In this document: piece after piece, positions 23,341-49,416 of the stretch | Numbering within the stretch: the first letter of the stretch is position 1 | How the letters are laid out: each line of letters starts with the position of its first letter | Assembly (NCBI GenBank): GCA_033220425.1 | Contig: CM065647.1 | Coordinates: 5,642,001-5,706,000 of the forward strand | DNA: 64,000 nt | Reading direction: 5' to 3' | Source of the DNA: Lepraria neglecta | Lineage: Eukaryota; Ascomycota; Lecanoromycetes; Lecanorales; Stereocaulaceae | Notes under the pieces: generated by a model | Database searches by the model: none | Told to the model about the DNA's origin: nothing | What the model saw: the letters and a program-made list of their open reading frames with translations, nothing else | Position numbers and translations under genes: made by a program

Positions 23341-24696
23341 TTCCTCTAGAAGATATATGAATCTCACAGTACACAACCGTGCTTGTTCTTTGAAGATACC
23401 AAGCTAAACAGTTGTGCTGAAGCCCGATGCTGAGCCTGAAGTGATACGATTTGATGTGTAGAAGACGACAGCGAGATGGCGATGTGAAAGTATATAGATA
23501 AGCTGGGGAGGGTTGCTGCAGGCAGTGAGAAGAAGTGGGAGTGGTCCGTTGTATCGGATTTTGTGCGGGGGGAAATCTCGAGGAGGGCCAATTCTGATTC
23601 GACCAATTTCCATGGCCCCAGCCGAGCCACAGATGATGAAGAGTACAGAAACCCTGCTATCTCCCAACCATTCACGGTCTGGATCAACTTCCGCAATATA
23701 ACTTCCCTTATCATCAAAATTTCCTTTCCAAAGGCGTTGACTCCGATACCGCTGGGAAGATCCGCCCGAGGAAGTTTGATAGCCATAACAATTACGCCAA
23801 TCACCCTCTCAAGATGCAGACATTGCTATACATTACAACCTGATCGGTCTACTCACAGTCAACCAGCTGATCGATCATTTTCTTCCGCACTCTCGAGCCT
23901 CCACAACAGCGTTCAATTACCGTCTCCACCGCCATACATGACATGCATGAAAAAGAGTCATGGCGCAGACCCTTCCTCATGAGCAACAACGGCCAGACTA
24001 TTGTTGGGCACAACAGGGCCACAAGCGACTGCAATTACATGCATGAACTGCTTGAAGATCATGTTCTCTGCTCTGATCTGGCCCAAGTGAAGAACGTTAC
24101 CAGCGTTTATGCAGCTCGTATCCGACTCCTCGGGGTCATGCTTCTCAAAACCGTCCACAGCGCCTGAAAAGTGCTGTCTCCTTCTGGAAAACATGGGGAT
24201 TCATCCTTACTTGAGAGGCTGACAGAAGCTGTCAAGAACAACTGACTGCTTACCCTGCGAAGTCGGACATTTCTCTTCTGTACATGCTTGGCATCCTTTT
24301 CTTGGAAGGCGCACAAGGGTCCTACATCCTGAACTCAAACACAATCCTTTAAACTATCGAAGTTCTTACTCATCTCCTGACCTTCGGTCCGAGGTCCGAC
24401 TCTGTTTATATGATAGCTGTTGGTTCTCCGGTGGGCACGGGTGGTCAATGGAGCGGCTCGACAGCGCTTACCCGCTAACCCGTTCATCTCAAACAACGAG
24501 CCCCGCTTCATACGAGTGGGATGAGCTCCTGACATTTTGCAGATTTCGGAGATTTTGCTGCCATCCGCTTTCTTTTGTAGCAGAAAGAGTGCCGTGGGCC
24601 GCACTGATTGGTGCTTTGTGTCTTACGTTGCTTTCAATCTCATTCCCATGCGGCTTACGTCTCCTGGCTCAAACGCGAAATGAGCTTGTAGCTATC
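23341..24696. other. Intergenic region, no gene seen
   Basis: The region lies between the divergently transcribed MFS transporter and expansin-like gene. Several overlapping open frames exist, but none has recognisable protein character. Confidence 0.4.
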
Positions 24697-24906: not shown

Positions 24907-26485
24907 ATGTTGCTGCCGTTGGTGTCTGTTCTTTCAGTAGCGTCCGTCGCCAGTGGCTCCGTCATTCGTCGCCAAGATCCAGGTCTTCAGTCCATTCCTG
25001 CCACAGGAAAGCCGGACAACACTTTCAATAACGGAGCTCCACAGTTGAATGCGGAGCCACCTCAGACTTCAGACCCTGCGCCAGATGTCTACGGTGCTCG
25101 ATCGATCGACCTCCCCTTTGGTCGACTTTACCATGGCAATCTGATGTTCTTCCCCGCTGGCCAGCTCAATACGCCTGATGGAATTACAGACCAATGGGTC
25201 AACACGCCAGCTAATCCTACCCAAAATGGGATTGACTCAGCCAATCAAAGTGCTTGTGGCATACCCGACAATGCCTACAGTGCTTCCAAAGTCGCTATCC
25301 ATCCGTATTTCCTCAAATATGCAGACCTCAGCCGTAAGTCAAGATCATTTATATGGAAACATTGGACGTACTGACAGTGTTCGAACAATCAGGTTATTGC
25401 ATGCAGGATGTCTGTATTTCATTCTGGAAGGAAGATGGCTCCTCGGATATGATGCTCAAGGTCACTGACGTAAGCACCCTTTCTGAGCGATTATCTCCAC
25501 TTTCATACCCATAGTTGAGTCGCAAGACATGTTTTGGACCTGGGATTTTCTCCGGACCTTGAGATGTGTCTTATGAGTTGTCCGTATTGAAGGAAAATTC
25601 CTGAATCCGAAATGGCGTACAGATCTGCAGCACCGACCCCAATGACCCAACCCATTGCGCAACCCCAGCAGACATCAAGATTGATCGCAGCAAAGCTATG
25701 GTCATGGAAGGGCTTACCGACCCCCCTGACGTAACGGCGCATCCAGAAGTTATGGGAAATCAGTTCCCAGACCAAGTATGGTGGTTTTTCATGAAATGTT
25801 GGGACGATGTAAGATATCACTATTGCTCACTTTTCTTCATTATTCATGTCTAATCGCTCATCTCCTCCAGGGCCTTCCACAGCCAGCCTACCAAGGCAAC
25901 AACTGGTTCACCGACCCACCTCTCCCCAACAATCTCCAATGGGCACAAGCATCCCAAACCCAACAGACAGTAAACAACCAGGCCGCCTATGCTGCCAAAG
26001 GCTGGCCCACATACCCAAACGGCGCCTACAACACTGAAAGAGACAACACGACCTCCCCTCCCATCTCAGACTGGGCTCCTGGAGATCCAACACCCGCATG
26101 GAGCCCCATCGCTGGAGGCAAAGGCTGGGGCAATCCTTCTGGAAGCGACGGCTCACCGGCTGCCGCATCTGTGGTCGCTTCGAATCTACCTGCTGCATCG
26201 ATGTCGCTCAAGCCGGCTATTATTCCTGGACCGGCTACTGCTTCTGTAGTTGCTTCGAATTTGCCTGCAGCGTCGATGTCGCTCAACCCTGGTGTTATTC
26301 CTGGACCGTCGGCTGCGGCAAGTGCTCAAGGTAGTAGCCAAGGTGCAAGCCACAGTACAAGCCAAGGTGGTAGTGCCGCTACCTCGACCAGCGCTGGTGG
26401 ACCGCCACCATCGATGACTCCGGTTCCAGGTCTCACGCAAGCTGGTACCGATGGCGAAGAGCAGGATGAATGTGATGAGCTGTGA
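24907..26485 (+). CDS. Secreted expansin-like / DPBB-domain protein
   Basis: Four exons (24907-25333, 25393-25469, 25623-25808, 25871-26485) give 434 residues. The N-terminus MLLPLVSVLSVASVASGS is a signal peptide followed by a possible Kex2-type RR site. The mature region begins with a Pro/Asn-rich linker, then a DPBB-like core: GNLMFFPAG, NQSACGIPDN, YCMQDVCISFW, MMLKVTDICSTDPNDPTHC (the D-C pair typical of double-psi barrels) and VWWFFMKCWDD, then a second conserved block with GWPTYPNGAYN and PAWSPIAGGKGWG. The C-terminal 110 residues are Ser/Thr/Ala-rich, probably O-glycosylated, and contain a near-perfect direct repeat. I read it as a cell-wall or plant-wall acting, non-hydrolytic carbohydrate-binding protein; enzymatic activity is not implied. 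Confidence 0.75.
26158..26322 (+). repeat. Internal direct repeat in the expansin-like C-terminus
   Basis: The unit reading ASVVASNLPAASMSL then P-x-(I/V)-IPGP is encoded twice in tandem, with only a few substitutions (LKPAI versus LNPGV). A recent in-frame duplication of about 75 bp explains it. Confidence 0.8.
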
Positions 26486-29252: not shown

Positions 29253-29660
29253 TACAATCAATATCAAACAGCCACACGGCATTAGGATAAGCAGGACTTG
29301 TTAGTCTCCGAAGAGAGCGGGTCTTGCAGGCACTGAAGCACATTTGAGATTCGATCATCTTTTGTACATATACTCCCTATTATCATCGATCGTCATTTAA
29401 TGAAAGCTCCGTTTCAACAACAAAAACACCGCGACTTGCGAAAGTCCCTTAAAGATTGTACTCTCTATTGCATCGTGAACCACTACTTAGCAAAGACTTC
29501 GTGCTCCCTAGTCATCAAATTACCCTAGTCGTAATTGAGGCCTTCCCAATATGGAAAGTCTCCTAATTGTATGAGATTGCAGGTTCGTGTTTGAGTCGGG
29601 TGGCCAGCGCGAAATCGCAGGTGTGGCTTTATCGTTATACCCGGTGGATATAGCTACTCA
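29253..29660. other. Flank of the Fot1/pogo element
   Basis: No gene recognised. AT content rises toward the element boundary. Confidence 0.4.
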
Positions 29661-29662
29661 TA

Positions 29663-29716
29663 TTGACCCCACAACCGGCAGGACCCTACAACCGGCAGAC
29701 GCTAAGCCTAGTTAGG
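29663..29716 (+). repeat. Left terminal inverted repeat of the Fot1/pogo element
   Basis: Pairs with 32215-32268. Three of the four mismatches are transitions, consistent with RIP. Confidence 0.9.
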
Positions 29717-32214
29717 TATAGTAGTAAACAAATACCATAAACAATTCTATTCGAATTGCTCTATATCACCCACTCAACTCCACTATTATAGCCACGTCAA
29801 CGCTCTACAAGCCCCTGGACCCTCTTCTAGATCTAGCCGATGACGAAGACCTCTAGATAGGTCCTCCGGAGCTCCTAAAGGAGTAAAGAATCCTATTAGC
29901 TCTGCACTTTTATCATAAAGTTGTTAGCACCCTATAAGCCGAACCTATTTACCAGATCGCTAGTCGCTTTCTGTCATGGTTCTACATGTATACCTCATGA
30001 GCGCATATCTCAGTCTACCATGCGGTACATCTCAGCACTAGCTTGGCGCATGCTTATATACAGAATTTGCTCCATAGATTTCTCATCATTATATATATTC
30101 AATATATTATTCAAAACATCTATATAGAGAGCACTTTTGCTTCTTTCTCCTGACACTTTCGGATTAGTCAGAGTACTCTATAAGATCGGATTAAAGGGGT
30201 AAAATTAAAGAAGGAATACGACGAGGAACAGTAATTACTATTACTAGTAGAAGAAGCTTCTATTATAAGATAGATAATATAACTCGGCAAATAGGGGTAG
30301 CTACTAAGGCTTATTTAATTGCGCTCTATAGCCTAGTAAATACTTTAGAAAAGAGGCTATATAAGAGATCTAGGATATTATTAGGTCAATAAGTTCTTAT
30401 ATCGCTATCCCGATCTAAAAACGAAATTCCTCTCGTCTATAGATAAGAATAGGAATAATACCGCTAGTAACTCTATAACGATAGCTTATTAGTTCGAGCT
30501 CTATATTATAATAAAGTAGAAGTATAATATAGAAGACTAGGATATATATAATATAGACGAGAAAGGCTTTATACTTAGAGTTCTAAAGAAGGTTAAATAT
30601 ATTATCTCAAAATATACTATCTAACTATATATCACTTATTACGGTAATCGGGAATAGGTATCTCTTCTTAAGCTTATCTCACTCGACGGAAGACTCCTTC
30701 GGCTCTAGATTATCTTTAAAGGAAAGTAATAGTAAGTAGTCTACTAGGAAGTACTAAGTAAAGAGAAGGTCTAGAGTTATATTATATATAGTAAGAACGG
30801 CTAGATAGATAATAAATTAGACCTACTTTAGATAAAGGAGTACTTCTATAAATATATAAAGCGAGAAGGCTTAAAAGATAAATATAGAATATTTATATTC
30901 GACAGCTATTAATCTTATATCTTAAATAAAGCTATTAAGTTCTATAAGGCTTATAATATTATCCTTTTATACCTTCCTTCCTACTCTATATATCTACTCT
31001 AACCTCTAGATATCTTATTCTTCGGACCTTTAGCTAATATATATTAAAAGTAGCTATTAGAAGTTATAAGGTTCGCTATCTATATTTCGGTAAATAAGAT
31101 AGAATTTATTAAATATTATTACTAAGCGAGGAAAGTAGTAGATAGGGAGGATATAATTAAAAACGCTTAGAAGAAAGCTGGCTTATCTCCCTAGAACCCT
31201 AATATAATTATTAGAAAGCTCCCTGTCAATATCGATATTAGTATTCGTCTAGTTATACTATCTAAAGCCGGGGTTACTATTAATAGCTTTAAAACATCTA
31301 CTAATATCTAGTAGATATAAGACCTCCTTTAAGCTATCGGAAATATTAATTCTTAAGTAGAGAAGCTAGGGAAAGCCGCTATCTATACTACCTTCTTCTT
31401 AGAAACTTAAGAGAGTATTAATAAGTAACTAATAAGAGCTAGTTAATAAAATTAGAGGCGTAAAGGTAATAAGTAAGGTACTTATAATAAAGCCTAAGTT
31501 ATAAGCTTAGAAGTCGTCTAAGAGAGGTTACTTACTAAAGAATAGTAAGAGAAGGAGGATACTTTAAGAAACTAATAGAAGGAAGAAGTAAAGGAGAAGA
31601 AGGTACTAGATAAGATCTAATAAGCGAAGAAGAAAGAAGAAGCTAAAATATATAAGCTTATTAGTTAAGTAAGAGTAAAGGCTCGAAAAGATAACGAGAA
31701 GAAGGTATTTACTATATTAGGATTTATCCGCTATCTATTCAAGCTTCTAGAGCCTCTAATAGTAATACCAAAAGTACCCCGAGCGACAGTAATCACGACT
31801 CGCCGAGTATGTATATCAGATATATCACTAAGGACGGAGCAGCCAGTCCCTGAGCGAGAGCTATTACCTACTCCTATGGCTACGCAAGGAGGTCGGATTA
31901 TTAGGAAGCCACAGCGACTACTAGAATAGAAGCTATACTTAAATAGGAAGGAGGTATTGCAATCGCGTTTTCAGGCCTGATTTTGAATTCGATTTGCGAT
32001 ATAATATAGTAAGTATATTCATATATTTAAGAATGCGGGTGGATATACCATACTATATATCTAAGATATGGCTATTCTAGATATCAGGGCCTCTTTTACT
32101 ACTAGTCCGCTGCCTCCGAGTATATTATAGAGCCCCAATTCGGTCAGTTCGCTATATAATGTCCTTGAATGGAGGTATTTATGTGGACAACATTGCTAAT
32201 TTTTTAGAAGTTTG

Positions 32215-32268
32215 CCTAATTAGGCTTAGCGCCTGCCGGTTATAGGGTCCTGCCGGTTGTGGGGTCTA
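32215..32268 (-). repeat. Right terminal inverted repeat of the Fot1/pogo element
   Basis: Reverse complement of 29663-29716 with four mismatches; TA follows directly at 32269-32270. Confidence 0.9.
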
Positions 32269-32339
32269 TACTAGTATTGTTGATATCGCGACGTGTATCT
32301 TTCAGTCACAGTGCCAAATATAGCAGTCCCAAACCGTAC

Positions 32340-32411: not shown

Positions 32412-32703
32412 GCACCTACGGTCAAACGTTAATGAATTATTATGAGTGTCGTTAGTGGTTGTGCTTGTGATGGCTGCGGCCGCCGCGCGCTGAGCCTCCG
32501 GGAATCTATTCTAGGTAAGGTTCAGATGTTGGTACTGCACAGCCCCATCATGTCCCAGAATGGCTGCCTAAGATTCAAATCTATACATTAACCCCACTTC
32601 TGCATTCGAATCAATTTTCTGCCAATCATTCTCTGCTTCTATCTACTCCACGTCTTCAATCTGAGTATCGCAATCCCCACTTCCTTACCTCTTCCCCGGA
32701 AAA

Positions 32704-33350
32704 ATGTCTCCCACCCTAAACCCTCGCACCCTCCGCCTCGCCTCAATCGCCTCCGCATCCATCGGCCTCTTCCTAAACACCATAACTATAATAGTAAACA
32801 AACTAACAGTCGACTTGCACGCCCCCAAGCACCTCTCGGCATGGGCTTTCCTCCCCCTCATCCTCACCATGCTAGGAAATTACACCATCCTCCATTTCCA
32901 TGCTGTCTTCAAAATCAAACATGACATCCCCGCCAACCTGCTCATTATTGTTGATGATTGCGCTTTCTTGGCTTTCTTGGCCCTGCTGATTGTGAATGGC
33001 ATTATTATTCACGATCTGGGGTGGAGTCATTGGGTCGCGATGGATAAGATTCAGATGTTGACTTATAATTCTATGCCGTGGATTTTTTGCGGGTGGGTCC
33101 TCCTCTATCATCTAATTCTCGGCACCAGTCCTAAATAGTAACGGCTGCTTATAGTGGCATCCACCTCCTCCTCGCACTACAGGGTGCAATCGATGTACTC
33201 GGCCTCAAGTTTCCAAAGCGCAATACTCGTTGTGCGGATTGCCATCGCAGAATTGAGCAAGGAAAGGGCAGGGCTGCGGATGATGGCGCGGGCGAGCCAC
33301 TGTTGAGAGCTGAGGATAATAGTGATGAGGATGTTGAGGATGATGTTTAG
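32704..33350 (+). CDS. Small four-TM membrane protein, unknown function
   Basis: Two exons (32704-33092, 33155-33350) give 194 residues. Four hydrophobic segments are visible: SIASASIGLFLNTITIIV, FLPLILTMLGNYTIL, CAFLAFLALLIVNGIII and IFCG|GIHLLLALQGAIDVLGL, followed by a cytosolic tail with RCADCHRRIE and an acidic end. Length and layout resemble MARVEL-like fungal membrane proteins, but no diagnostic motif is recognised. The gene converges on the polyketide synthase with 600 bp between stop codons, so it is the outermost candidate member of that cluster; co-function is not shown by the sequence. Confidence 0.7.
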
Positions 33351-33950: not shown

Positions 33951-36900
33951 TTATTCTGAAGGAAGTCCTGTGGCCACGGCGGCTGCGACAGCGGCGATCT
34001 ATTAAATTCGAGTTAGCAAGCTTCTTGGTTGAAAGGAGCGGACGGACGTCGAACGTACCTTTGGTGGGAACATGATGGAAAAGTGATTCCCTCCCACAAC
34101 ATGGCATGCCACCTCCGTTCCGGTAAGCTTGTCCCATCCACTCGGTCCGAATGAGTCTCTCTTCCCCGTTAACCACTGCTTGGCTTTGTCCATGTCCGCG
34201 TTGATGTCTCCAGAGGATGTAGCTGCCATGTACTCCTTGCCCTGTTCTTCCCTCCCCTCTAATACGCCCTCTTGAGCCCAGATCACTGTGACTTTGCCAG
34301 GGCTCTTGCCTGCGGGTAAGGGCGTGGCGGTGTAATGTTCGAGAGCTCTGACACTGCCTAGGAAATGCAATCGAGTGCGCTCAGTGATAGGACCACCGGA
34401 GCTCGAAAGGCCGTCGAAGACGCCTGCTTTCTCAAGAAGGTTTAGCGTTGGTGATGGCAGTGGCGGGAGCGTTCCAGGGCAGGGGCTATCAATCATGATC
34501 AAGTTTGTGATGGTCTCTCCCTGTGCGATAAGCTGGCGTGACGTTTCGTAGGCGTGGATACCGCCTAGAGACCAACCACCAAGCATGTAAGGGCCATGCG
34601 GTTGGATTTTGCGGATCTCTTCGATGTATATGGCGGCGACTTCCTCGAAGGAGATGGTGTAGTCGATGGGCGAGTTGTGGAAAGGGGAGTCGAGGCCGTA
34701 GACTGGGACGCCTGAGGGGAGAGCGGGGAGACTAATGTAGGAGAATAAGGAGCCTGCGCCATCGGGGAGGAGGAAGAGTGCCTGCCGACCCTTTTGTGGT
34801 CGGCCTTGGAGGAGGACGGATTTGCTCCTGAAGGTCGGTTTGGACGGCTCCGCATTCTTTTCAATGCGAGCCAATGGCAGGTCTAGAGATTTCTGAGGAG
34901 AGGCTGGAACGCCAAGTGCTTTTTGAACGTCGGCGAAGGTTGGGTTCTCGTGGAAGAAGTTAGCGGACAGGTTCATGCCCATCTCTGTTTTGAAAGCATC
35001 CAGAATTGAGATGGTCAGGAGCGAGTCGACACCAATCTCGGCGACTGGGGTCGACAGTTGTATCTCTGACTCTTCGATGCCGACCTCACGGGCAATGATT
35101 GACATCAAGATGGCTACCATATCTGGTTCTTCTGGAGTGGAGATCGTCGAATTGCTTTGTGACCTTGAGAACCCGGGTGATTCATTTTCGGAAGAACTGT
35201 CACTATCGTAGGAATCGACTGGGATTTGCGTCAGAGTCATCTTGTCGAGGAAGAAGGCTTTGAGCTGAGCAACAGTGGGGTATTCGATGAACAGCGAACT
35301 GGGCAAGTCCAGTCCCGTCTCTGGTCGAAGCCTGCCCAGTATAGAGATCGTGAGTAAAGAGTCGACGCCAACATCACTGATTTTCACGTCGTCACTAAGT
35401 TCGCTGACTTCGACGCCAACTTCGGATGCGATCGTCTCAAGGATTTTCGAGAATCCTCCGCCAGAGCTTTGTGCGACAGGGGCAACAGCAGCTTTCCTCG
35501 TAATCGCTGGGCGTTGCCTTGACGCTTTCGCAGCGACTGGTTTTGGTGCCACGCTCGCCTTTGGACTGGTCCCTAGCAGGCTCTGGAGAGTTGTCCGCTT
35601 CATCTGTTGGAATTTGATGCCTTTGCACACTACAACGATCTCGTCACCATCAAAAATGTAGACGTCGCCCGCTTGAACACCCCGAGAACCGGTCGGTTGC
35701 ATGCGAACGTAGCCGCGATATGCTTTCTCGTGAGAGAGGGGTGCCGCAATGCGGAAGCTCTCCCAGCCATGAGAAATGAACACAGTATCTGCCGGAGTCT
35801 TCACGCTGGCATTCAGGATAAACCCTGCAAGATGGGCCACTGTGTCAATCCAGTATGGGCTATACACGAATTGGCCATTTCCAGCAGTCGACTGGAATCT
35901 GATATTAGCCGCCGTCTCGTTCAGCTCGCAGTCCATAAAGAGCTCGTCGATGTTGTGGTATTCCTTGCTGTATGTCACGACAGTTTGGAACTGCTTGTAG
36001 ATCATGTCTTTCAGCATCCTGTGAGTACCTGCTGAGTTGGCAGGCTCGATAAGTTTGTCAATCCTCGATTGGACAAGATAAGCATTCCTCTGCCACTCGT
36101 CCATCCATTGTTGGCCATCACCATACATCACAGTGCAGTGTGCATGCTCTTGGCGTCCTTTCTCGTCTTGAGAGCTGATGATGATGTTCACTGCTTTCTC
36201 GTTGGAGTTTCTGGATGCAGAAACTTTGAGGAGCTGAGAAGTTTGGTCAGAGTCCACGATGAGTGGCCTGAACACTTCCATCGTTGACAAATCCATCGCC
36301 GGTACCGGATCAGATGGTGTCATGCGTGAGGCGATGTACCAAGCTGCCGTGAAAGCCACATCCGCGTAAACAGAGCTTGGACATAGGCCGATACCGTTAA
36401 CAAGATGACCTCGAACAGCATTGTTCAATTTTGGCTCTGAAAGTTGGGATGAAAATGTTACCGAAGCGCTATCATTTGTGAACAACTCATTTTCCACTTG
36501 TTGCAAGCAGGTCGTCGAGAAGGCTGTTTTCGGTGGTGGTGCTGCTGAAGCTGTACCGGCTGTCTCGCCTTTCCGCAGAGACCAATCTCCTTCATGCTGG
36601 ATCCAGTAGTTCTTCAGATCGAAGGCATAGGAAGGTAACTCCAATAGTCTGAGAGCGCTCTGGAAGTCTCTGTGATAGTCGACCCAGTTGACCCTCACTC
36701 CACTGTTGTAAGCATTTGCCATGCTTTTCGAGATCGTCGACCAACAGTCCTCATCGCGCTTTAGGGACGGAAGGGCCTTTGTCGGGCTCAATCCCAATGT
36801 CGACCGTACCATTCCGTGACACAATGGGTGTGGACCTATTTCGATCCATAGGCTTTCATCGCGCGCGATGCCCTCGGCTTTGCAGGTCTGAAGAGCTCCT

Positions 36901-39900
36901 TGGAATTTCACAGGCCGCCGAGCTTGTCTAGCTAGGTAGTCAGGTGAAAAAACACCCTCATCTCTTACTAGTGAGCCTAGAAGCGTTGAGGCAACCGGAA
37001 TGGTGGGCTTGCGGAATTCAACATTCTGTGCGAGAAGCCGTATGTCGTCCAAGATTGGGTCCATTTGCACCGAATGGAATGCGAAAGGAAGCTTCAGTAA
37101 TGTTTTCTTCACCCCGGCCGCGCTGAGTTTCTCCTCTAACAAGCTGATGTCCTTGATCGCACCGCTCACAACTGTACTGCTTGGTCCATTCAAGCAAGCA
37201 ATTTCGCAAGACGGCATTTGCCCGCAGGACATGATCTGCTCGATAGGCTCAGCTCCAGATTGGACGGCTAACATGGCATGACTGTTGGCGATGCATTTCT
37301 TCTCCATCAGTTCTGCGCGTTTACCAACAAGGTAAAGCGTATCGCTAACCGAAAGTACACCAGCGACACAGAGAGCAGCATACTCGCCAAGGCTATGGCC
37401 AATGACAGCTTTAGGAGCGATTCCCCATGATTTCCAGAGGGAGGCAAGTGCCAGTGCGACTGATACCAAAGCCAACTGAGACTCACTGGGGCTCGGTAGA
37501 CGATCATCAGAAGCGTCCGCTGTTATTGTCCATTTGAAAGACGGTAATCCCTGCTGAATACAGATGCTATCAAAGTCCCAAATGCTTTTCCGGAATGTGC
37601 TGTTGGTCTGGAACAACTGGCGTCCCATACCAAGATATTGCGAACCTTGTCCGGTAAACAAAAAGATTGCAGAGGAGACCTCCGTGGTTGCAGTTGGCTC
37701 CGAGGAACTGGCGAGGTCTTTTCTCATCGACTGGGTAAGCTGGTCGATACTTTCGATGCCATATGCTTTACGGATGACGTGATGCATTCGTCGCGCGGTA
37801 GTCGTATAGGACAGGTCTTGCAATTGTGTTTCCGGGTTTGACTCGATGTATTCCAACAGCCGTTGGGTATTCTGCCTGAACGAGGTCGATGTTTTGGCTG
37901 AAACAGCTACGACGTAGGCAGTGCGAGGATCTAGGCCTTCTCGCATAGTCTTCGGGGCATCTTCTATGAGAAGACTTGTATTGCCGCCCTGTTCGAGGGT
38001 TTTCAGCATGGTTTCTGCCAAATGTCGGCTGAGGGCGATTACTTACTGTGGCGTTGAAATTGTTCAGCAACACTCGTCTTTTCCCATCACCTCCGCTGCG
38101 AGCTTTGAATGGGGTCATTTTGCGGTTGATGCGGACGTTGATCTTGTCTAAGGGAGGGAACTTTTCATTGATACGGCCTTTGATACCGACATGGGGAGGT
38201 ATAGCGTTCTTCCGCATCATCAACAAAACCTTCACCAACGAGTTTGTGCCGGCAGCCTAAATCGTATTTTGTTAGCGACTGCTTTAGGCAAATCTAAAGG
38301 GGAGGCTTTACCGCTTCGGCATGCCCGAAATTTGCCTTCACTGCACCCACGTGCAAAGGGTTCTCCTTCGTCCGACCTGCAAGTACGTTTGTTACCGAAG
38401 TGAATTCCGTGGCATCCCCGGCTTGGGTTCCTGTTCCGTGCATCTCTACATAGTCAATCTCGCTTGGCTCGACATCTGCTTCCCGCAGGACCTGCCGCAT
38501 GAGTTTTTGCTGGGCTCCAGCGTGTGGATGAGTTATAGAGACCGCGTGTGCTGAGTGATTTGTAGCGGCAGATCTGATGACAGCTTGGATATTGTCTCCT
38601 TCGGCCATAGCATCATCCAAGCGTTTCAGGATAATGCTACCTACTCCATCTCCTCGGCAGTACCCATCCGCGTCATTGTCAAATGTTTTGCATGATCCTG
38701 TGGGTGATAAGAAACTCCCTCGACTTAGGCCTGAGAACATGTCAACGCCTGTCAGAACATTTGTTCCTCCAGCGACGGCGGTATCACACTCATGTGCTCG
38801 TAGCGAAGACATGGCCATTTGGATAGAGAGTGTGCTGGAAGAGCAAGCAGCATCTACACAATAAGACGGACCTTCCCACTTGAAGTGGTAGTTAAGCCGG
38901 CCAGGACCAAAGGCTCGGATGCCTCCAGAGACATAGTACATCTCGATATTCTGTGATGCGTTTGCTTCGCGGTAATCGTCGAGTGTCTGGCCAAAAAAGG
39001 TGCCAATTCGATCGCCAGCGGTCGATGGGGTTCCATCTGGAGTGTAACCTGCCATCTCAAGGGCCTCATATGTCGTCAGAAGTAACAATCGCTGGGCTGG
39101 GTCTGTTTGTGCTGCTTCTCTGGGAGACATGTTAAAGAGTCTTGCATCAAAGAAGCCAGGTCGGTCCACGAAACACCCATACGGCGTGTAACTCGTGTTC
39201 TTGATCTTTCCCGACGGATCACAATGAGTATCAACGTCGAATCGATCTCTTGGAATCTATCTAGCGTTAGGTTCTGATCCTTCGATGGATATTTTGGACT
39301 TACCTTTTTGTGAACATCTCTGCCATCTTCGAGGATTTTCCAGACATCTTCCAGGGTTTCGGATTCCGGTAGTCGAGCTGCATAGCCAACGATGGCGATA
39401 TCACTGGACCGATTCTCGGGTTGGAGTGCTCGCAGTGGCTGTAACTCAGTACTTTCTACAACGTTGATTCCGGCGCTCGTCAACTTTTGCCGAAGGCCAT
39501 CAGCGGCGCGTACAGGACCGGTGCTAGTCAGCACAACGTCTTGACCTGCAAGATTGGAAAGTATGTTTTGAACAACTTTTGACCAGCTCAGAGGTTCTTG
39601 AAGGATGTCCAAGACAATGTGCTGCAAGGCCTCCCCAAGGGTGCGGGCTGCAATGGGCTCCCCAGACCTTGTGGAGAGGATGGCCACATCTTTCCTGAGA
39701 CGATGCTCATGGCTATTCGACAAGGGGCCAATAATCCTCTCGAGGTCGGGAGTTCCCAGATGAGGAGCATGGAACGCGGCGGTGATAGGAAGCTTGACTC
39801 TGCGCGCTTTCTTCAAAGGCCCGGAAAAAGAAAAAAGGGACGCCAATGTAGAAGGCGGCCCGCTAATGGTCGCCGTCGAATCTGACAGCGCGCTAATGTA

Positions 39901-40620
39901 CGCCGTCTTGCTCGTGGCCATCGTCTATTGGAGGTAGTTGTTAGCGATGATAAAGAATAAGCGAACAAAGTGGGCTCATACATAAGTTTGGTGGAATTGA
40001 TCGAGGGCCTCTTGCTGCTCGAAGGGAGCAATGCCGGGCACGATAGTCGCCCAGCTTTCACGCGATTTTTCGATTTGGTCTGATCGACGACTTGCTTCTA
40101 GACCTAGACGCAGCGAGACGCGAACGATCTCCGGTGCCAGATTGAGCAGCTGGCTAGTGGTGTTCGAGACCGCCATGGCCGCCGCCGGCAGCATGCCTGT
40201 GCATAATCCGACCAAGTACGTTGTTGATGAGGGATTTGCTTCAAAGGCAGAGTCGTCATTTTCTCCTCGGCTGCATTAGAAAAGCAGAATTAGCCTTAAG
40301 TTTCGAGAGGCGGGTGGTGAGATTCACATCAATATCAAACCCAACTGGGCTATGCAAAGAAGAACGGTGGTGACCGCTTCCTCAGGAGTGTGGCTCTTCG
40401 AGTATGTCTCTGCCAAACTGAGAATCGAATCGAAGGAAGGAAATAATGAGCGATCTGGCTTTTCTGAGAGTGCTATCTCTTGCCGAACAGCATTGTATGT
40501 CTTCCGGAAGAAGACCTGAAGCGTCACGGATTCTCTTGACTGGCGATATAGCTGCTTGATAATAGGACACGGGTCGACCGTTTGGTCCCCGAAGAGGACC
40601 AGTTTGGTAGGCAGAGTCAT
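33951..40620 (-). CDS. Non-reducing polyketide synthase, SAT-KS-AT-PT-ACP-ACP-TE
   Basis: Seven exons (40620-40328, 40270-39982, 39924-39304, 39256-38312, 38256-38047, 37988-34059, 33998-33951) sum to 2111 residues. Domains with catalytic residues: SAT with Cys121 (GLCTG) and His246 (AFHAPHL); KS with Cys539 (DAACSSS), His674 ([11 protein letters not shown]) and His713 (NFGHAEA); AT with [10 protein letters not shown] and Ser985 (GHSLGEY); product template with His1314 ([13 protein letters not shown]) and Asp1501 (YWIDTVAHL); two ACPs with Ser1663 and Ser1775 (both GVDSLLTIS); and thioesterase with Ser1926 (GGWSLGG) and His2088 (GGNHFS). No reducing domains are present, so it iteratively condenses malonyl-CoA into a poly-beta-keto chain, cyclises it in the PT domain and releases it through TE/CLC. 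All active sites are intact, so it is probably functional. The tandem-ACP-TE layout is shared by pigment (naphthopyrone/naphthol) and perylenequinone-type synthases; which product it makes cannot be read here. Confidence 0.95.
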
Positions 40621-40691
40621 TGTGAAGGAGATCGAAAAGAGCAAGGAGGTGGAATCTCACTAGCCCGCAGACAGCGGGTCCAGCTCTGGTC

Positions 40692-40700
40692 TTTATAAAA
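40692..40700 (-). promoter_or_regulatory. TATA-like box of the polyketide synthase
   Basis: Read on the minus strand, tttataaag lies about 75 bp upstream of the synthase ATG. Confidence 0.5.
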
Positions 40701-42540
40701 TTGAGTAAGAATTATTCATCTGGAAGGCTGAGTCCCGAAGGTCTCCGACGCCTCAACCGCTGTCTTCTTCATGGATGAAGCTCCTTGTGGACGTTCTGCT
40801 AACGTGAGGATGCACCTTATCGTCCCATATCGCGTCATCAAGTATCAAGCGAACATTGATCAGCTTTCTCGTATCTACCCGGACCAGGGGGTCTCAATGA
40901 AACGTTCTCATGATAGTCATGAGTCAACAGGCGATACCAGAGGATGTCCATCGTTGAGCCTGTGGGTCAAGACAAGGGTGTGAGCATCCGATTCGCCGCT
41001 GGTATCAGCAGCGGCTTACCATTACCTGGTGCCTGATGGCGTTCATCTATCTCGTCCCGCTTGTTCATCCCACGCCTCGCGTCAATTCCTAAGCAGTATG
41101 AGACTCAGCAGGACGGAGCAGATGGCGCTTACGCCCATAGGAATAGATAAAACAGCGGTGTGTATATTCTTCCATGACAATGGTTCTTGAAGTTGAACAC
41201 CGTGTGACTGCATACCATACCTTATCACCCAGTCAATTGCACAGGAGAACCCCCTGTGTAGGAGTCCTACCACCTAGGCAGCATGACTCCCTAAGCGAGT
41301 GTCGGTCAGAAGAGTATGACAAAGGGTTCAATGTCACCTAACCGAGGCCTGAGAAATATCTAGGGCTGACAAGATAGTATATTTTTGAACATAATTCTCC
41401 TATTGGATTGCCCGCACGTTGCATGGGTTTATGCGAGGCCTGCAGACCTTCTGGGTTAACCGAGAACGTGGGATTTCAGTATGAGCCAGCATCTGGATTT
41501 GAGAGAGACCCACGGCACCGGCACCGGGTCGTAAACGTTCCCACAATAAGGAGACCCGAAAATCATTACCCTTGATGGTGGTATCTCGATCCGTTGAACG
41601 ATACGAAACATGCTCATGACAGTGGTCACGGATCCACTTTTGTGGAGAACGAGAAGCTGAGCTGATTACGGAGACGCCGTATGTAGCAAAACATGAGAGG
41701 TAAAGAACCCAACTGCACAGCCTGTGCGCTCGGAAGTAACATGGAATGAGGCTACCAAGCGATTGGGAGAGCTAACTGAGGGAAATTAAAACGAGTGTAC
41801 TAAACTGCAAAGTTTTCGATACTGTTGCAGAGCTGCAACCGCTGAGAGATTAACAACGCGTTCGGGGAAGCCTGAAAGGTGCTGATGGAATAGCAAATTA
41901 CGCATCGAGGTTGCTGTGCGCGAGTAGTGAAAGTAAGTGATGACAAGACGTCGGAAAGCGCAATGGTCATCAATGACAAAACGGGACGCGTCATACTAGT
42001 ACGGTAATCTATGGCTTACTAAGAATGCAATTTCCAAGCACGATTCCCGATTCTAAGGGCCTTCTCATGCAGCTGATTCTAGGATCGCTTCGACTTGATC
42101 TTACCTTTGCCTCGACCTCTAGGATTACACTAGCAAGCGATCTTTGTTTCCGTCCAGAAAAGGTCGGCCTTTCAAAAATTCCGAGCGAACCCGTGTGATT
42201 AGAAAACAGGTATGGGAGCAACACTAAGCTAAGGGTTGAGATAAACTGTCAATAGCAAGCAAGCAAGCCTAGCTCGATTAGGAACCCGTTGCTTTTCGTA
42301 TCTTGGCTCCAGCTGGGATCAAATCCATGCACGTCTCTATGCTTGTAACCGGGCTGCTTAATGTCAAGTGAGCCTTGTACCAATCCATCTGCCAAGGTCT
42401 GGCGGTGAACTGCCTTGGCTCGCTCTTGCTCTCAAGTCGAGTATTTCCTCGGGGACACCGCTCATACTTGAAGCCTTTTATATTCCGGTGTAATATTCGA
42501 ATTCTAGCTGCAGGCCGACAGCTCGTATGTAGCGCTCGCT

Positions 42541-42594
42541 TACGGCCTTACGGCCTTATGGCCTTACGGCCCTATGGCCTTATGACCTTATGGC
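42541..42594. repeat. 8-bp minisatellite, about 6.5 copies
   Basis: The unit TA(C/T)GGCCT is repeated in tandem with scattered C/T and G/A differences, within the intergenic region 0.6 kb upstream of the P450 start. Confidence 0.85.
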
Positions 42595-43177
42595 GCTGCG
42601 TAATCGCTTGAGAAGCGCGTGGTGCGCGAAAGAGCCACCGAGCTTATGCGATGCAGGCCCACCTTAATCTGACACAACCCCCTCCTCGAAGCCTATTACC
42701 ATACATGCAGCAGGTAGACTCATCTCAAGCTGACATGAGAATTGACGTCATGGAGCGGTGTGATGCTGGCAAATAGTTGACATGCATCTGTCAGATACGA
42801 CGTTCAATCTGGGCCAACCGCAACGACTGCTCATTCTGTCGGGCTTCACCAAATCCATGGCCTATAGAAGATCCATTGGAGACCACTGATAAGCCTATCG
42901 TTTTGATCCCATGAATTCCCGATATGCATCCAGGCCTTGTGGATAAACCTTGATGTTTTACGCACGAAACCCGGTATCATGCATGTAAGATGGTGTAACG
43001 TCGCCGTGTGATGTAAGCATTCCTCGGAGTCAGATCAGAGATCTCTTTGTGCTTGGCTCTTCGCCCATCTCTTCGTCAATTAAACCCCCCCGCAACATTA
43101 GCAAACATGTATCCCCCTTCCTAGAGAACAACCTTTTCTTATTACAACCTTACAAAGATCTCGCAAAGATAGCAAAA

Positions 43178-45262
43178 ATGCTGGGCGTCATCCAATACAG
43201 TCTTCTGACCATATTCTGGCTGCCCATAGTTGGCGCTGGTCTCTATGGAGCTGGTCTAGCAATTTATCGCCTTTTCCTAAGTCCCCTTGCCAAGTTTCCC
43301 GGTCCTAAACTTGCAGCTTTGACTCGCAAGTATGAATCTTATTATGAGGCGGTTCAGAATTACGAGTATCTCTGGAAGATCAAAGCGATGCATGAGAAAT
43401 ACGGTAAGCAATTCTGGCTTTGTAGACCGCGTAGCATTGTGGACTCGATAAAAGCCTGGGTAAATCCAAGGTTGTTTGAACATACTTACTAAACTTAGAA
43501 CTTCAGGTCCCATTATTCGCATTAACCCCCACGAACTTCACATTGACGACAACGATTTCTTCGACAAATTGAACAGCTTCCAAGGAAAATGGGACAAGGA
43601 CCCCTACACAGCTCATCAATTCGCCAACCCCGGATCGTTGGTCGGGACCATCGATCATGATCTTCACCGCAAAAGACGGGCAGCGGTCCTTCCATTCTTC
43701 TCGAAACAAAAAATCTACGCTCTGGAGCCGGTGATACAATCTACGATTGAGAAGCTATGTGACAAGATGCAATTTTATCAAAAAACCGGACAACCACTGA
43801 ACCTACGCAATGCGTTCAAATGCTTTGCGGCTGATGTTGTTGCCGAATATTGCTTTGCTGAGAGTGGAGGTCTTATCGATAAACCCGACTTCGCGGCCGA
43901 AAATTGGGTGCAGCATCAGCAGGGTTTGAAGTCTGGCTTGAGGGCACGATATCTCCCACAGTGGTATATGCCCGTGGTTCGAGGGGCACCCGCATGGATT
44001 CGCCAGACTGTTGACCCAGCTGCGAAACATTTCGAAGTCTGGCACAGAGTGAGTCTCCTGAGTCCCGTCAAGTAAAATCAGTGCAGTAGGAGAGCTCGTG
44101 GATTCAACAACGCTTAGTCCCCTTCGTCGTTTGTAATATTTGGGCCAAGCTGACGATTTGCACAGGACGTAGAAGGCCCAGTCGGCCGAATGGAAACACG
44201 CAAAAACGACGAATTCTACGAAAAAGCAGGCCACCGAACCATCTTCCACGAGCTCATCAACAGCCCCCATCTCCCTCCAGCCGAAAAGGGAACAATCCGT
44301 GTCATTCAAGAAGCCGGCGCCATGGTTGGAGCTGGTGGTGAAAGCACGTCACAAGTGCTTACAGCCTTCATGTATTGTCTTTTGGCAAATCCTCAAGCGA
44401 TGAGCAGACTGCGAGAGGAGCTGCGCTCTGTTGTGCCAACTGCAGACTCTCCGGCACCTTCTCTACGGCAACTCGAAGCGCTTCCATATCTGGTACGTCA
44501 TCCATATTATTGCGGGCTTCGCGAAGAATTTGCTGATTGACTCGATATTAGACTGGTTGTGTTAAAGAAGCATTGAGGTACGTTCTTCCCAGACAAGCCA
44601 AGCTATGCAATCGTTTGTACTGACATTTAAACAAAAGGCTTCGTACTGGAAAAATCGCACGACACCAACGTATCCCAGCGGCTCGGTCTCTTTACTACAA
44701 GAACTGGGAGATCCCAGCCGGTGTAAGTAATGATCCATCTACCACAAAGCAACACCACTGTAGTTCAATTGCACTGTCTACACGCACTCAGCCTCATTAT
44801 CAGACACTTACATTTCATTCTGCACTATTCACCATCATGAGAATTTTCTAACCTTTCCCAGACAATCGTCAGCATGACCCCCATCTTCGTCCACATCGAC
44901 CCAGAAATCTTCCCCAACCCGCACGCCTTCATGCCCGAGCGCTGGCTCAACCTCGACGAAGCGGAGCGCCAACGTCTTGAACATTACTTCGTCCCCTACT
45001 CCAAGGGAGCACGTCAATGCGCTGCAATCACGTGAGTATTCCTCTCGCGACGGCCGGACAAGATAAGATATTAACAATGTGGATCCACAGGCTGGCAAAT
45101 TCAGAGCTCTACATGTGTATAGCCGCCATTGTCGTCCGCTTCGATCTCGAGTTATTCGAGACCGACGAATGGGATACTGAAATGGCTGTTGATTCGCATC
45201 ACCATTCTCCTCGGCTCGGGTCCAAGGGCGTTCAGGTTTTCGCGAAGAGATCGACTTTCTAG
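43178..45262 (+). CDS. Cytochrome P450 monooxygenase
   Basis: Seven exons (43178-43403, 43507-44048, 44166-44492, 44552-44577, 44638-44722, 44862-45031, 45091-45262) give 515 residues. An N-terminal membrane anchor ([20 protein letters not shown]) precedes a Pro-rich hinge ([11 protein letters not shown]). The helix I motif is [12 protein letters not shown]; the ExxR motif is split by introns as CVKEALR; PERW follows at FMPERWLN; the heme-ligand Cys455 lies in [13 protein letters not shown]. The canonical loop is FxxGxRxCxG; here the first Phe is Tyr448 and the last Gly is Ala457. The family uses NADPH-P450 reductase in the ER membrane to hydroxylate, epoxidise or couple substrates. Placed 2.6 kb from the polyketide synthase and divergent from it, it probably oxidises the polyketide. 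The 26-nt exon 4 is unusually small but in frame. Confidence 0.9.
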
Positions 45263-47131
45263 ACTTTTAAGGATGTGGGAGTAAGGGAGTGATGGGCTAC
45301 AGTGGTAAAATCGGTTGGAAGAATGAGGGTCTAGATCTTCTGCATGTTTGTCAAGATCCAACATCTTGTCAAAGTCTTGCCAACCTTGAGAGCTGCAGTG
45401 CGATTTTTCCAACAAAAATCAAGATCACGTCTTTCTTCTACGAGTCTTCTTACTCACTCACTCACTCCCAACGGCATAAATGATCAGAGCATGTACTAGA
45501 TGTAGAATACGGCCCAAAAGCAGTCCATAGAGCAATAGATTCCCTAATCCTACATCTTCACTAGTCTAGCTTACTCTACTAGCTAGCCGCTTGCGCGATC
45601 ATCGCAAGAGATTTCACCCCGGGTGGTTGCCTAACCCTGGAAACGTATTCCATACCCAAAGATACGAGAAGCATGTAAGAATGACAACCTCGACCCGAGT
45701 ATGAGCGACGGCTTCGAAATGCGCTGGGGGGAGGAACTTCCATCCCTCCAACGGTTGTTCTGTCTCCACTCACACATTGCTTATGCATCCATGCGAAAAT
45801 TTCACGATAACAACGTGGCTTACTACAAGGCAGCATACCTTAGCTTGTCATGTCGCGAACCACAGTTCTTCGGACAATACTTGCGGCCGTACCTCCGTCC
45901 TGGGTCCACTTTACTGTCTGTATCCATTTTATTCTTTGGATCCACTCTGTTGTCAGTATCCACTATGGTTCATGCCATGAGCCACGTTGATGTGGCATGG
46001 CCTGAGCACGTTGTTCGGACATTCCAAATTCTTTCTGTCCGAGCGCATGAGCCCTGCATGACGGTTAGGGTATCCCGGAACCCGATTGGAGGCGAGGCGC
46101 AGAAGGCTGAAGCAGTCAGCTTGGTAAGACATAGGGATGGCTTGATAAGGATACTGGTCCCTGACAAGATCCACACTTGTTCGCCTTAATAGCTATTTAC
46201 AGGTTAGTTCAATTGTGGGACGGGATCGTTAGGTTTGACGCCAGTCGTGCAGCGGCCGCTCTAGAGAGTAATAGTCTCGGTACATCACACTCCTTGTATT
46301 TTGTGTCGACGACAAAAGATAAACATCATCAATGGCATTGGTCTTGCATACTGCGAACACAGTTAGGGGTGTGCGTCGTATGCAATGCGCATGCCCACTG
46401 ATCTCCCTGCCCAAGATCTTGCAGGGACCCACATAATAAGCAGGCATAATTCTCCGATGCAACGTGCCAAATGCAACGTCACATCGCTGCTGAAGGAGAT
46501 GATTGCCTCAACCTCGCGACCAGCTTTCTCACCACAGTAAGAAGGGCCCGGGGACTTCTTCCATCCGCAACTCGCGTCATCGTCAGACCCGGAGCCGAAA
46601 GATGGCTTATTTTCTCTTCAGCTATCTTCGTTTATCAATCCTTCGAGCACACCGATAACAGTCGCCTAACTCCACATACGAGCCATCAACTAAACCTGGC
46701 GCGATGCTAAATAGCTTGTGCTGTGCCGTCTACTAGACTGACAGCGAGAACGCCCCGAACTGTTGACATCGATGATGGAGGATCAGACCATGTCACCGTT
46801 GATAAGCACTGTGCCTGATACGCACTTCTAACGGGCGAATTATGGAGACTATCAGGCTTGTCGAGCGAATGGTGGACGGAGGAGCCATATCGGCCCCTGT
46901 TGGCATACACGCAGATATGTGCTAATGTATGGATTATCAAGCCATTGACCGTGCAAGGCCCAACTAGTGTGCTTGTGGGTTGATAGCATCGTCGACGTTG
47001 CGAACTTCGCGTTTCCGTTGAGATACGTAGTTGCATCCAAAACCTTTCGGCACGAAGTTTTCTTCCTCTGTCATATCCTCTCTTTTCTTTTTTTTGCAAG
47101 CAAAATTTCTGGAGAAAAAAAGCCGTCTGCA
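45263..47131. other. Intergenic region between P450 and methyltransferase
   Basis: 1.87 kb without a coding signal I can support. Open frames at 45701-46189 (+) and elsewhere lack recognisable protein character. Confidence 0.4.
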
Positions 47132-48894
47132 ATGGCTTCCGAAATTGCAAAGTTGGCGGCATTGGTGTTGACAAATACTGTTCGAGTTGATGATTATTTG
47201 CAAACAAATAGTCTTCCTTCGCCTTCTTTCCACGAAGATGGCCCTGTCGACCTGAAACTTTCTGTAGAGATTGAGGCAGCTCGGGTTGTGGCCCTCGAAG
47301 CTTCCCTCAGACTGAACGATCTTCTGCGTGGACCAATCGAACTGCTTCGACCAACGGTATATCTCCATGCTTTCATTGCCGACCAATATCTAGCACTGAC
47401 GCGTTCAATACCATCACCAGGTCAATGGGGTCAGTCTCGAAGCAATCTATAAATATGACATTGCCAGCAAGGTTCCTATCCATGGAGAGATCTCTGTCGT
47501 TGAGCTCGCAAAATTGTGCGATATCTGCGAGCCAGATCTACGCCGGATTCTTCGATTTGCCATCAGCCACCATCGTGTTTTTCAAGAGCCTCGAAAGGGG
47601 ATGATCGCCCATAGTGCGGCATCACGAAGAATAGTAGAGGACTCGGCAACACGGGATGGCCTTGGGCTCCAGTTTGCCGATGGTTGGCAATCCTTCGCAA
47701 GGGTCTGTCTCGAGCTCACCTTACTATTTCTCGCAATCACTGACTTCAATGGTAGACTGTTGAGGCTATGGAGAAATGGAAAGAGCAGGAGCCAACCAAA
47801 ACGGTAAGCCTCCCTTTAGTCATCCCTCAGTCGCCACTGAAGTCGTGGGATTTGACACCACCCGTGTTACTCCCGTACCCGAACGCCATACCCAGCGCCA
47901 TACCCAGCGCCATACCCGCAAAGGCGGAATAAGGATCTTACCACGGAGCAAATGTTAATAACTTCGCTTCTAGGGATTTGCTCTTGCACACAATACAGAA
48001 AAGCCAGTCTTTGACTATCTGGAGGAAAACCCCGCAAAAGCGAAACGCTTCGCCGGCGCCATGTCATCCTTTGCAACCTACAAAGGTAACGGCCCTGAAT
48101 TCCTAGTCAATGGCTTTCCATGGGCTTCTCTTGGTAGTAAGACTGTAATCGATGTTGGCGGCTCAGAAGGGAAATACAGCATCGCCTTAGCACAATCGTT
48201 CCCAGATCTGAAATTCATCATTCAAGATCTTCCCGCGGTTGTCAGAGCCGTCGATGCTAAACGGCCAGTACCGTCAGAGCTCGTTGATCGAGTAACGTTT
48301 ATGGCCCATGACATGTTCAAGGAACAATCAGTATCTGCCGACATCTATTTGTACCGCTGGGTGTTCCATGACTGGCCAGACGCGTATGTGGTGAAGATCT
48401 TGCGGCAGCTGATACCTGCTCTGAAGCCTGGAGCTCGGGTCATTATCAACGATACTATTCTACCTGAGCCAAACACTTTGTCAGAACTGCAAGAGAGAAA
48501 AATCCGGTATGACGAACTGACATCAAATATTAGTTGGTGCATTCGCTGATTTTGAAACAGTGCTCTTGACATGGTCATGCTGTCCTTCTTCAATTCTCGG
48601 GAACGTGAGAGAGACGATTGGGAGAGGATCTTTCAGGAAGTTGATAAGCGGTTTAGATTCGTAGGTGCTTGGGTGCCTGAAGGTGCTGCATTGGGTATCA
48701 TTGAGGCTGTTTGGGAAGCCGAGACTGTCAATGAGGTCAATGGGGTCAATGAGGTCAATGAGGTGAATAAGGCAAAGGAGATGATTGAGTTCATGGAGGT
48801 GGATGGGGTCAACGAGATAAATGGGATCAAGAAGGTGCATGGAGTCATCGAGGTGAAAGAGGTCAGGGAGGTGAATGGGTCGAACGGACATTGA
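47132..48894 (+). CDS. SAM-dependent O-methyltransferase (plant/fungal type)
   Basis: Five exons (47132-47356, 47421-47702, 47756-47803, 47974-48506, 48561-48894) give 473 residues. The N-terminal third is the helical dimerisation domain with the winged-helix strings LEAIYKYDIASKVP and ISVVELAKLCDI. The SAM site is TVIDVGGSEGKYSIAL (about 243-257) followed by LKFIIQDLPAVV; the catalytic base is His317 in YRWVFHDWPD. Family members methylate phenolic hydroxyls of aromatic polyketides, so a tailoring role after the neighbouring synthase and P450 is the natural inference. The conserved fold ends at LGIIEAVWE (about residue 415); a further 55 residues are built from an imperfect VNEVNG-type repeat and look like a recent low-complexity extension. 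The 170-nt third intron carries its own minisatellite. Confidence 0.9.
47883..47918. repeat. 12-bp tandem repeat inside a methyltransferase intron
   Basis: The unit cgccatacccag is read nearly three times within the third intron (47804-47973). Confidence 0.85.
48727..48890 (+). repeat. 9-bp coding minisatellite in methyltransferase 3' end
   Basis: The unit GAGGTCAAT (Glu-Val-Asn) and its variants recur in frame, most cleanly at 48731-48770 and degenerating toward the stop codon. Because the unit is three codons long, copy-number changes keep the reading frame. Confidence 0.8.
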
Positions 48895-49057
48895 GTGATC
48901 GGATATAGATAGTTAGACAGCATTATCCTCGGCAAGCTAATACGATCGAGATCTTTGCAATCTTCTTACCATCAATAATCCAGAAGAATTTGCATCCGCC
49001 CATCAATTGAAGAGGGCACAGCAACGTCGCCGAGTTCAAGGTTCCATTCTACGCTTA

Positions 49058-49291
49058 GAAGGGTTCACCTCCTAATGGGCCAAACCCCCAAATGGGCCAC
49101 TTGTAGGGCTGACGTCTGTAGCCTCCCTAGAATTTGCCCTAGAGCTGATTGCTTAGGCGACAGGTTTGTCCCCGGAACCTATCGGCTTAGGGCTTGGCGG
49201 ACGAGCTCTAGGGTGCTCTCCCGGAGTATAAGGGTTTCAGCCCTATGAGTGGCCCATTCGGGGGTTTGGCCCACTAGGAGGTGAACCCTTC
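49058..49291. mobile_element. MITE-like element with 55-bp inverted repeats
   Basis: A 234-bp element beginning GAAGGGTTCACCTCCTA has its 55-bp end (49058-49112) repeated inverted at 49237-49291 with four mismatches, all transitions. TA flanks both ends, so it behaves like a Tc1/mariner-type miniature element. It has no coding capacity and lies in the 0.5-kb gap between the methyltransferase and the next gene. Confidence 0.85.
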
Positions 49292-49416
49292 TAACCATTC
49301 TAGGAACTGGCCGAGGCACATCGCGTCGAAGCACCCCTCGTCCTCAACCTCCTCTTCACTCTCGTATACACCACAACTATGCTGCCCTAGTTCTAGCTAT
49401 TGGCAATCGCCCTACA

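Follow-up and report, generated by a model that had tools for sequence, protein, structure and literature searches.

Fungal gene sets that combine a polyketide synthase (PKS), an O-methyltransferase (OMT) and a cytochrome P450 (P450) are named for kotanin biosynthesis and all belong to the grayanic acid cluster, so that gene sets of this kind are familiar from the chemistry of moulds and lichens. In Aspergillus niger, the kotanin/orlandin genes are ktnS (PKS), ktnB (OMT) and ktnC (P450), as given in an excerpt of PMC8362661. In Cladonia grayi, the grayanic acid cluster comprises PKS16, the P450 CYP682BG1 and an OMT; excerpts of the same reports describe PKS16-type lichen synthases with two acyl carrier protein (ACP) domains and a thioesterase (TE) domain, and ascribe closure of the ether bond to CYP682BG1 (PMC9964704, PMC10608907, PMC8533459). 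For atranorin, the excerpted literature states that three genes of a 14-gene cluster sufficed. Here, we analysed a 64,000-nucleotide stretch of the Lepraria neglecta genome, hereafter the window, corresponding to bases 5,642,001-5,706,000 of the 5.99-Mb contig C2 in an assembly of 42.0 Mb and 11 contigs. The window carries a locus of three genes encoding a non-reducing PKS (NR-PKS), a P450 and an OMT. We consider it probable that this locus is an intact, compact fungal aromatic-polyketide cluster whose three genes make up a minimal but complete pathway and not a remnant. Our literature search returned no paper that could be tied to this locus, and we make no claim on whether it has appeared in print.

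All three gene models were spliced by hand, with introns picked as GT-AG and the ends checked for all 16 introns. The frames of the synthase, the P450 and the OMT were open after splicing (Table 1). For synthase intron 1, a GTGAAT donor keeps the frame, which was lost with the alternative splice choice. Pfam and NCBIfam domain matches across the three genes had E-values from about 1e-22 to 1e-115 and are therefore not due to chance. In the synthase, the starter unit acyltransferase (SAT), ketosynthase (KS), acyltransferase (AT), both ACP and TE domains were identified by Pfam; the product template (PT) domain was weak in Pfam (PS-DH, 23.9 bits) and was identified by NCBIfam TIGR04532 (386 bits for a cut-off of 168, E-value 1.4e-115). 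The catalytic motifs, located by string, are present. The SAT Cys and His, the KS Cys/His/His, the PT His/Asp and the TE Ser/Asp/His align with residues of PksA and/or CTB1, and the AT Ser/His and ACP Ser are those that we take to be catalytic from the Pfam matches. The gene product has all the domains, including PT, and the catalytic motifs of a fungal NR-PKS (SAT-KS-AT-PT-ACP-TE). This agrees with a preliminary description of the locus, made from the sequence without database searches, which had proposed a 2,111-residue SAT-KS-AT-PT-ACP-ACP-TE synthase with its catalytic residues in place.

The OMT carries the Gly-rich S-adenosylmethionine motif IDVGGSEG and a His-Asp pair at the catalytic place (RWVFHDWPD). 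Among PDB chains, it is closest to 7bqj and HpiI, which we take to be OMT-like pericyclases. In the alignment, FHDWPD of the OMT corresponds to LHDWSD in GedA and to LHKEPD in both 7bqj and HpiI, and the Gly-rich stretch reads VDLSGITG in HpiI and VDIGGITG in 7bqj. A pericyclase function was set aside on the His-Asp pair found here versus His-Lys in 7bqj and HpiI, and on the altered Gly-rich motif of HpiI; the weak spot of this argument is that 7bqj retains VDIGGITG. These motifs make a functional methyltransferase the best reading of the protein. Roughly its last 50 residues are encoded by a 9-nucleotide tandem repeat, and none of the own-genome matches listed, the gene itself aside, extends past query residue 437.

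The P450 has the EXXR motif (EALR) and the haem-binding Cys (KGARQC) expected of this family. Its best 60 of 281 matching PDB chains are mostly animal and plant P450s. The preliminary description had called this gene divergent, which holds for its haem loop, a departure from the FXXGXRXCXG consensus. The same loop was sought in L034-L063, P450 loci of this genome that were the 30 best of 103 matches; several of them contain exons lacking the loop or additional pieces of a single gene. Besides the cluster P450, 17 loop rows were obtained; 13 were kept and four dropped by eye as chance frames (two from L041 and two from L057), one of the dropped rows likewise having Phe and C-x-G. All 13 loops kept have Phe and C-x-G, a count that for Phe is partly built in by a filter favouring Phe or Tyr starts, which is not the case for C-x-G. 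Among 4,304 fungal P450s, the last place of the haem loop is Gly in 97% and Ala in 2% (97 proteins), the latter being called true P450s in an excerpt of PMC3990721. With the EXXR motif and the haem Cys intact, the altered loop appears unusual and not disabling in itself.

We then evaluated the space between the genes. The preliminary description gave gaps of 2.6 and 1.9 kb, in line with the measured values (Table 1), and reported that the genes are not interspersed with any transcription factor, transporter or further tailoring enzyme. Pfam analysis of 10 open reading frames (ORFs), comprising nine of the 27 ORFs of at least 60 aa lying wholly inside the gaps and one overlapping the OMT, gave no match up to an E-value of 0.1, hence no gene relic was seen there. 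A scan of the unspliced window for the Zn2Cys6 pattern found nothing. Within what was tested, the three genes stand as an island, with neither a regulator nor a transporter among them or next to them, and that part of the preliminary description stands, as do nearly all of its sequence details. An 8-bp tandem array, CTTATGGC, is present in seven copies at 42539-42594, in the divergent promoter region between the synthase and P450 genes.

To place the synthase, its domains were compared with those of nine own-genome loci (L025-L033) and of PksA (norsolorinic acid synthase, group IV) and CTB1 from PDB. The PT tree held eight sequences, L028, L031 and L033 being dropped with fewer than 150 residues matched. 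The cluster PT pairs with that of L029 (44.2% identity, support 0.954), and the PksA PT pairs with that of L025 (support 1.0) and shares only 28.2% identity with the cluster PT, so that the PT does not group with the C4-C9 type of group IV. L029, on contig C8, is a melanin-type synthase in a setting of the dihydroxynaphthalene (DHN)-melanin type, lying no more than about 6.5 kb from an AflR/Zn-cluster protein, a short-chain dehydrogenase/reductase (SDR) and a scytalone dehydratase. Since the cluster PT falls with L029 and not with PksA, its sequence argues for C2-C7 closure of the first ring.

The TE was compared at the positions listed in an excerpt of PMC5591372, where groups II-IV are marked, in PksA numbering, by Ser1938, Pro1966, Leu1974 and Phe2010, and group I by Gly1938, Arg1966 and Leu2010. 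The cluster TE has Leu, Pro, Leu and Phe at these four places, that is three of four group II-IV residues and, in a comparison that included no group I sequence as positive control, no group I residue at any of its three places. PksA has all four group II-IV residues, L029 three (Ala, Pro, Leu, Phe), and L030 (Ala, Pro, Pro, Phe) and L031 (Ala, Pro, Ile, Phe) two each. The L029 TE is identical to the cluster TE at 12 of 13 listed TE sites. On these residues, the cluster TE looks like the Claisen-cyclase type of groups II-IV.

The KS tree comprised 11 sequences (the cluster synthase, CTB1, PksA and L025-L032; L033 yielded no KS), with L026, L027, L028 and L032 treated by our choice as a distant outgroup and forming the root. 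The cluster KS lies outside L031, L029, L030, L025, PksA and CTB1, adjoining the root, with a weak node support of 0.81 in FastTree and 51 in UFBoot (61 at the next node). The broken locus L031 was included in the KS tree and in the five-sequence TE tree and given no group. KS identity to the cluster synthase is 58.6% for L029, 56.8% for L030, 55.5% for both L025 and L031, 53.5% for CTB1 and 52.2% for PksA. The phylogenetic placement suggested in the preliminary description was thus answered in part, PT and TE pointing to C2-C7 closure and Claisen-type release; the KS tree, without group I references, has UFBoot values of 51-61 at the nodes that bear on the group. The cluster synthase shares with PksA and CTB1 SAT-KS-AT homology over more than 1,200 residues. 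Among the products named in the preliminary description, these data do not single out a perylenequinone precursor: a perylenequinone/group IV assignment was dropped on the PT and KS comparisons, the CTB1 KS falling with PksA and L025. With L029, of group II and the DHN-melanin type, the synthase shares the KS and PT identities and the TE residues given above; unlike L029, it has a P450 and an OMT beside it and no scytalone dehydratase, and the ORFs tested included neither an SDR nor a regulator. Four scytalone dehydratase matches were found at two places in the genome (one on C7, the other next to L029 on C8), neither of which adjoins the cluster.

In the pathway that we propose, the SAT would load an acyl starter, the KS and AT would extend it with malonyl units, and the PT would close the first ring by a C2-C7 aldol condensation. 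Release by the TE through C10-C1 Claisen cyclisation would then yield a polyhydroxynaphthalene or a naphthopyrone, or, from a short chain, an isocoumarin or a coumarin. The methyltransferase would then cap a phenol, and the P450 would hydroxylate or oxidatively couple the product; dimerisation by the P450 is a guess. Judging from the protein sequences, the product is best taken to be a naphthol, naphthopyrone or isocoumarin that is O-methylated and oxidised by the P450. The preliminary description put forward three enzymes leading to an aromatic polyketide that is oxidised and O-methylated. This seems reasonable, with a TE that looks to be of the Claisen-cyclase type, and our comparisons narrow it towards a Claisen-released product with C2-C7 folding.

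Several points weigh against a complete pathway of this chemistry. The PT tree is small. At TE position 1938, the Leu of the cluster synthase is neither the Ser of groups II-IV nor the Gly of group I, and this group II-IV mark is replaced, by Ala, in L029, L030 and L031 as well; the missing positive control bears on the same comparison. The KS placement would also suit group I. The haem loop is off consensus at two sites (Tyr for Phe, and C-A-A for C-x-G), and with such a loop the activity of the P450 is not assured. Finally, no promoter dyad common to the three genes was found, 49 of 60 random triples scoring as high.

The main rival is a depside/depsidone cluster of the grayanic or physodic type, in which two orsellinic-type rings would be borne by the two ACPs and linked through an ester by the TE (or the SAT), the P450 would close the ether bridge and the methyltransferase would cap a phenol. 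The locus has the gene set of the grayanic acid cluster and, as in the printed descriptions of PKS16 clusters, a two-ACP, TE-ended synthase beside a P450 and, as for grayanic acid, an OMT; in the same excerpts, ether closure is the work of a CYP682 P450, and PKS16 of C. grayi is 2,089 aa long for 2,111 aa here. The near-basal position of the KS is compatible with this idea, and four fatty-acid-synthase-like gene pairs found elsewhere in the genome could, as we read them, be a source of starter units. The locus differs from the grayanic acid cluster by a TE that has Leu and not Gly at 1938, Pro and not Arg at 1966, and Phe and not Leu at 2010, and by a PT nearest that of a melanin-type synthase. 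The PT weighs weakly, group I PTs being likewise of the C2-C7 type according to the excerpted literature, in which His2100 of ThiA is named as a further marker of depside synthases. A depsidone was our leading idea and was lowered because of the TE residues; it is kept as the main rival since the KS placement is compatible with group I, and we regard it as unlikely.

Somewhat less probable is a kotanin-like route to a bicoumarin or isocoumarin-type compound, in which a pentaketide lactone would be O-methylated and dimerised by phenol coupling through the P450. It has in its favour that ktnS, ktnB and ktnC are the same kinds of gene as those found here (NR-PKS, OMT and P450), a likeness in kinds of gene, and that group II-b synthases are said to yield the pentaketide 6-hydroxymellein. 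Against it, nothing in the P450 sequence marks a coupling enzyme, and the odd haem loop is left unexplained. We give a similarly slim chance to the idea that the synthase represents a separate lineage, with its basal KS and Leu1938 at the TE oxyanion site, and that, acting with an altered-loop P450 and a methyltransferase whose tail is built of repeats, it would produce an aromatic scaffold, perhaps a coupled dimer, known from no characterised three-gene cluster. Least probable, and in our view rather improbable, is that the locus is what is left of a larger cluster that is being lost, a degenerate state to which the preliminary description inclined and which could account for the off-consensus haem loop, the methyltransferase tail built of repeats, the element with terminal inverted repeats and the MITE-like element on either side and a broken synthase gene at a distance of about 160 kb on this contig, but which is opposed by three open spliced frames, by the presence of the synthase catalytic motifs, by the absence of Pfam matches in the 10 gap ORFs tested and by the kotanin and atranorin precedents.

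The locus gives the impression of a small gene set, not of a damaged one. If the intact three-gene cluster that we favour is indeed complete, it would be a minimal system in which an NR-PKS, a methyltransferase and a P450 lead to a finished pigment-type compound, and a test case for the activity of a P450 without the usual haem-loop Phe and second Gly. Otherwise, it would be one more cryptic fungal cluster.

Table 1. Features of the three-gene locus and its surroundings (window positions)
Feature	Position	Strand	Remarks
HET-domain ORF	19204-20289		Left flank; Pfam
MFS (major facilitator superfamily)-like transporter gene	about 21548-23345		Left flank; weak NCBIfam matches, frames by eye
Secreted-protein-like gene	about 24907-26485		Left flank; our reading
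AT-rich element	29655-32276		Left flank; 83-nt terminal inverted repeats, member of a multicopy family
Small membrane-protein-like ORF	32665-33350		Left flank; our reading
NR-PKS, SAT-KS-AT-PT-ACP-ACP-TE	33951..40620	-	2111 aa; 7 exons, hand-spliced; Pfam/NCBIfam
NR-PKS exons	40620-40328, 40270-39982, 39924-39304, 39256-38312, 38256-38047, 37988-34059, 33998-33951	-	
Synthase-P450 intergenic region	40621..43177	.	2557 bases; genes divergent; no Pfam match, 4 ORFs tested
P450	43178..45262	+	515 aa; 7 exons; PF00067; EALR K-helix, AGGEST I-helix
P450-methyltransferase gap	45263..47131	.	1869 bases; no Pfam match, 5 ORFs tested wholly inside
OMT (Methyltransf_2)	47132..48894	+	473 aa; 5 exons; PF00891
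Coding minisatellite, 9-nt (36-nt higher order)	48727..48881	+	Codes for the VNE-rich C-terminal OMT tail
MITE (miniature inverted-repeat transposable element)-like element	49055..49294	.	240 bp; 58-nt terminal inverted repeats (93%); directly right of the cluster

Of the 69 ORFs listed in the flanks, 30 were searched with Pfam. Rightward of the MITE-like element, three ORFs without Pfam match are followed by DUF2458, COX14 and TOR-kinase genes. Among the relatives listed, this element shows 76-97% identity over most of its length and is found on several contigs. On the left side, seven copies of the AT-rich element were found among the matches listed, with 89-94% identity over its bases 502-2622; its bases 317-501 have, among these matches, only one other place, C4:3463674-3463858. 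The MFS-like transporter gene lies about 10.6 kb past the 3' end of the synthase and has no Pfam match at 0.001. Farther left, aldo/keto-reductase, TACC, Pex24p and IBR ORFs were found together with the HET-domain ORF.

The broken NR-PKS L031 lies at C2:5509700-5517800. Its tblastn match breaks off at query residue 947 and resumes at 1519 no more than about 27 bases on, with much of the AT and half of the PT gone, and its TE translation contains two stops; this TE pairs with that of the cluster (support 0.907, five-sequence tree). Among KS relatives sought in viral contigs, two stretches fit a pattern and neither was confirmed. A weak KS match accompanied by a SAT/AT-like match 5-17 kb apart was found at C7:3969514/3986069 and C2:4217353/4222939, and further such pairs at C5:2497216/2504436 and C6:3293225/3283672. 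In our reading, these four pairs resemble divergent fatty-acid-synthase subunit pairs, of which four would be many.

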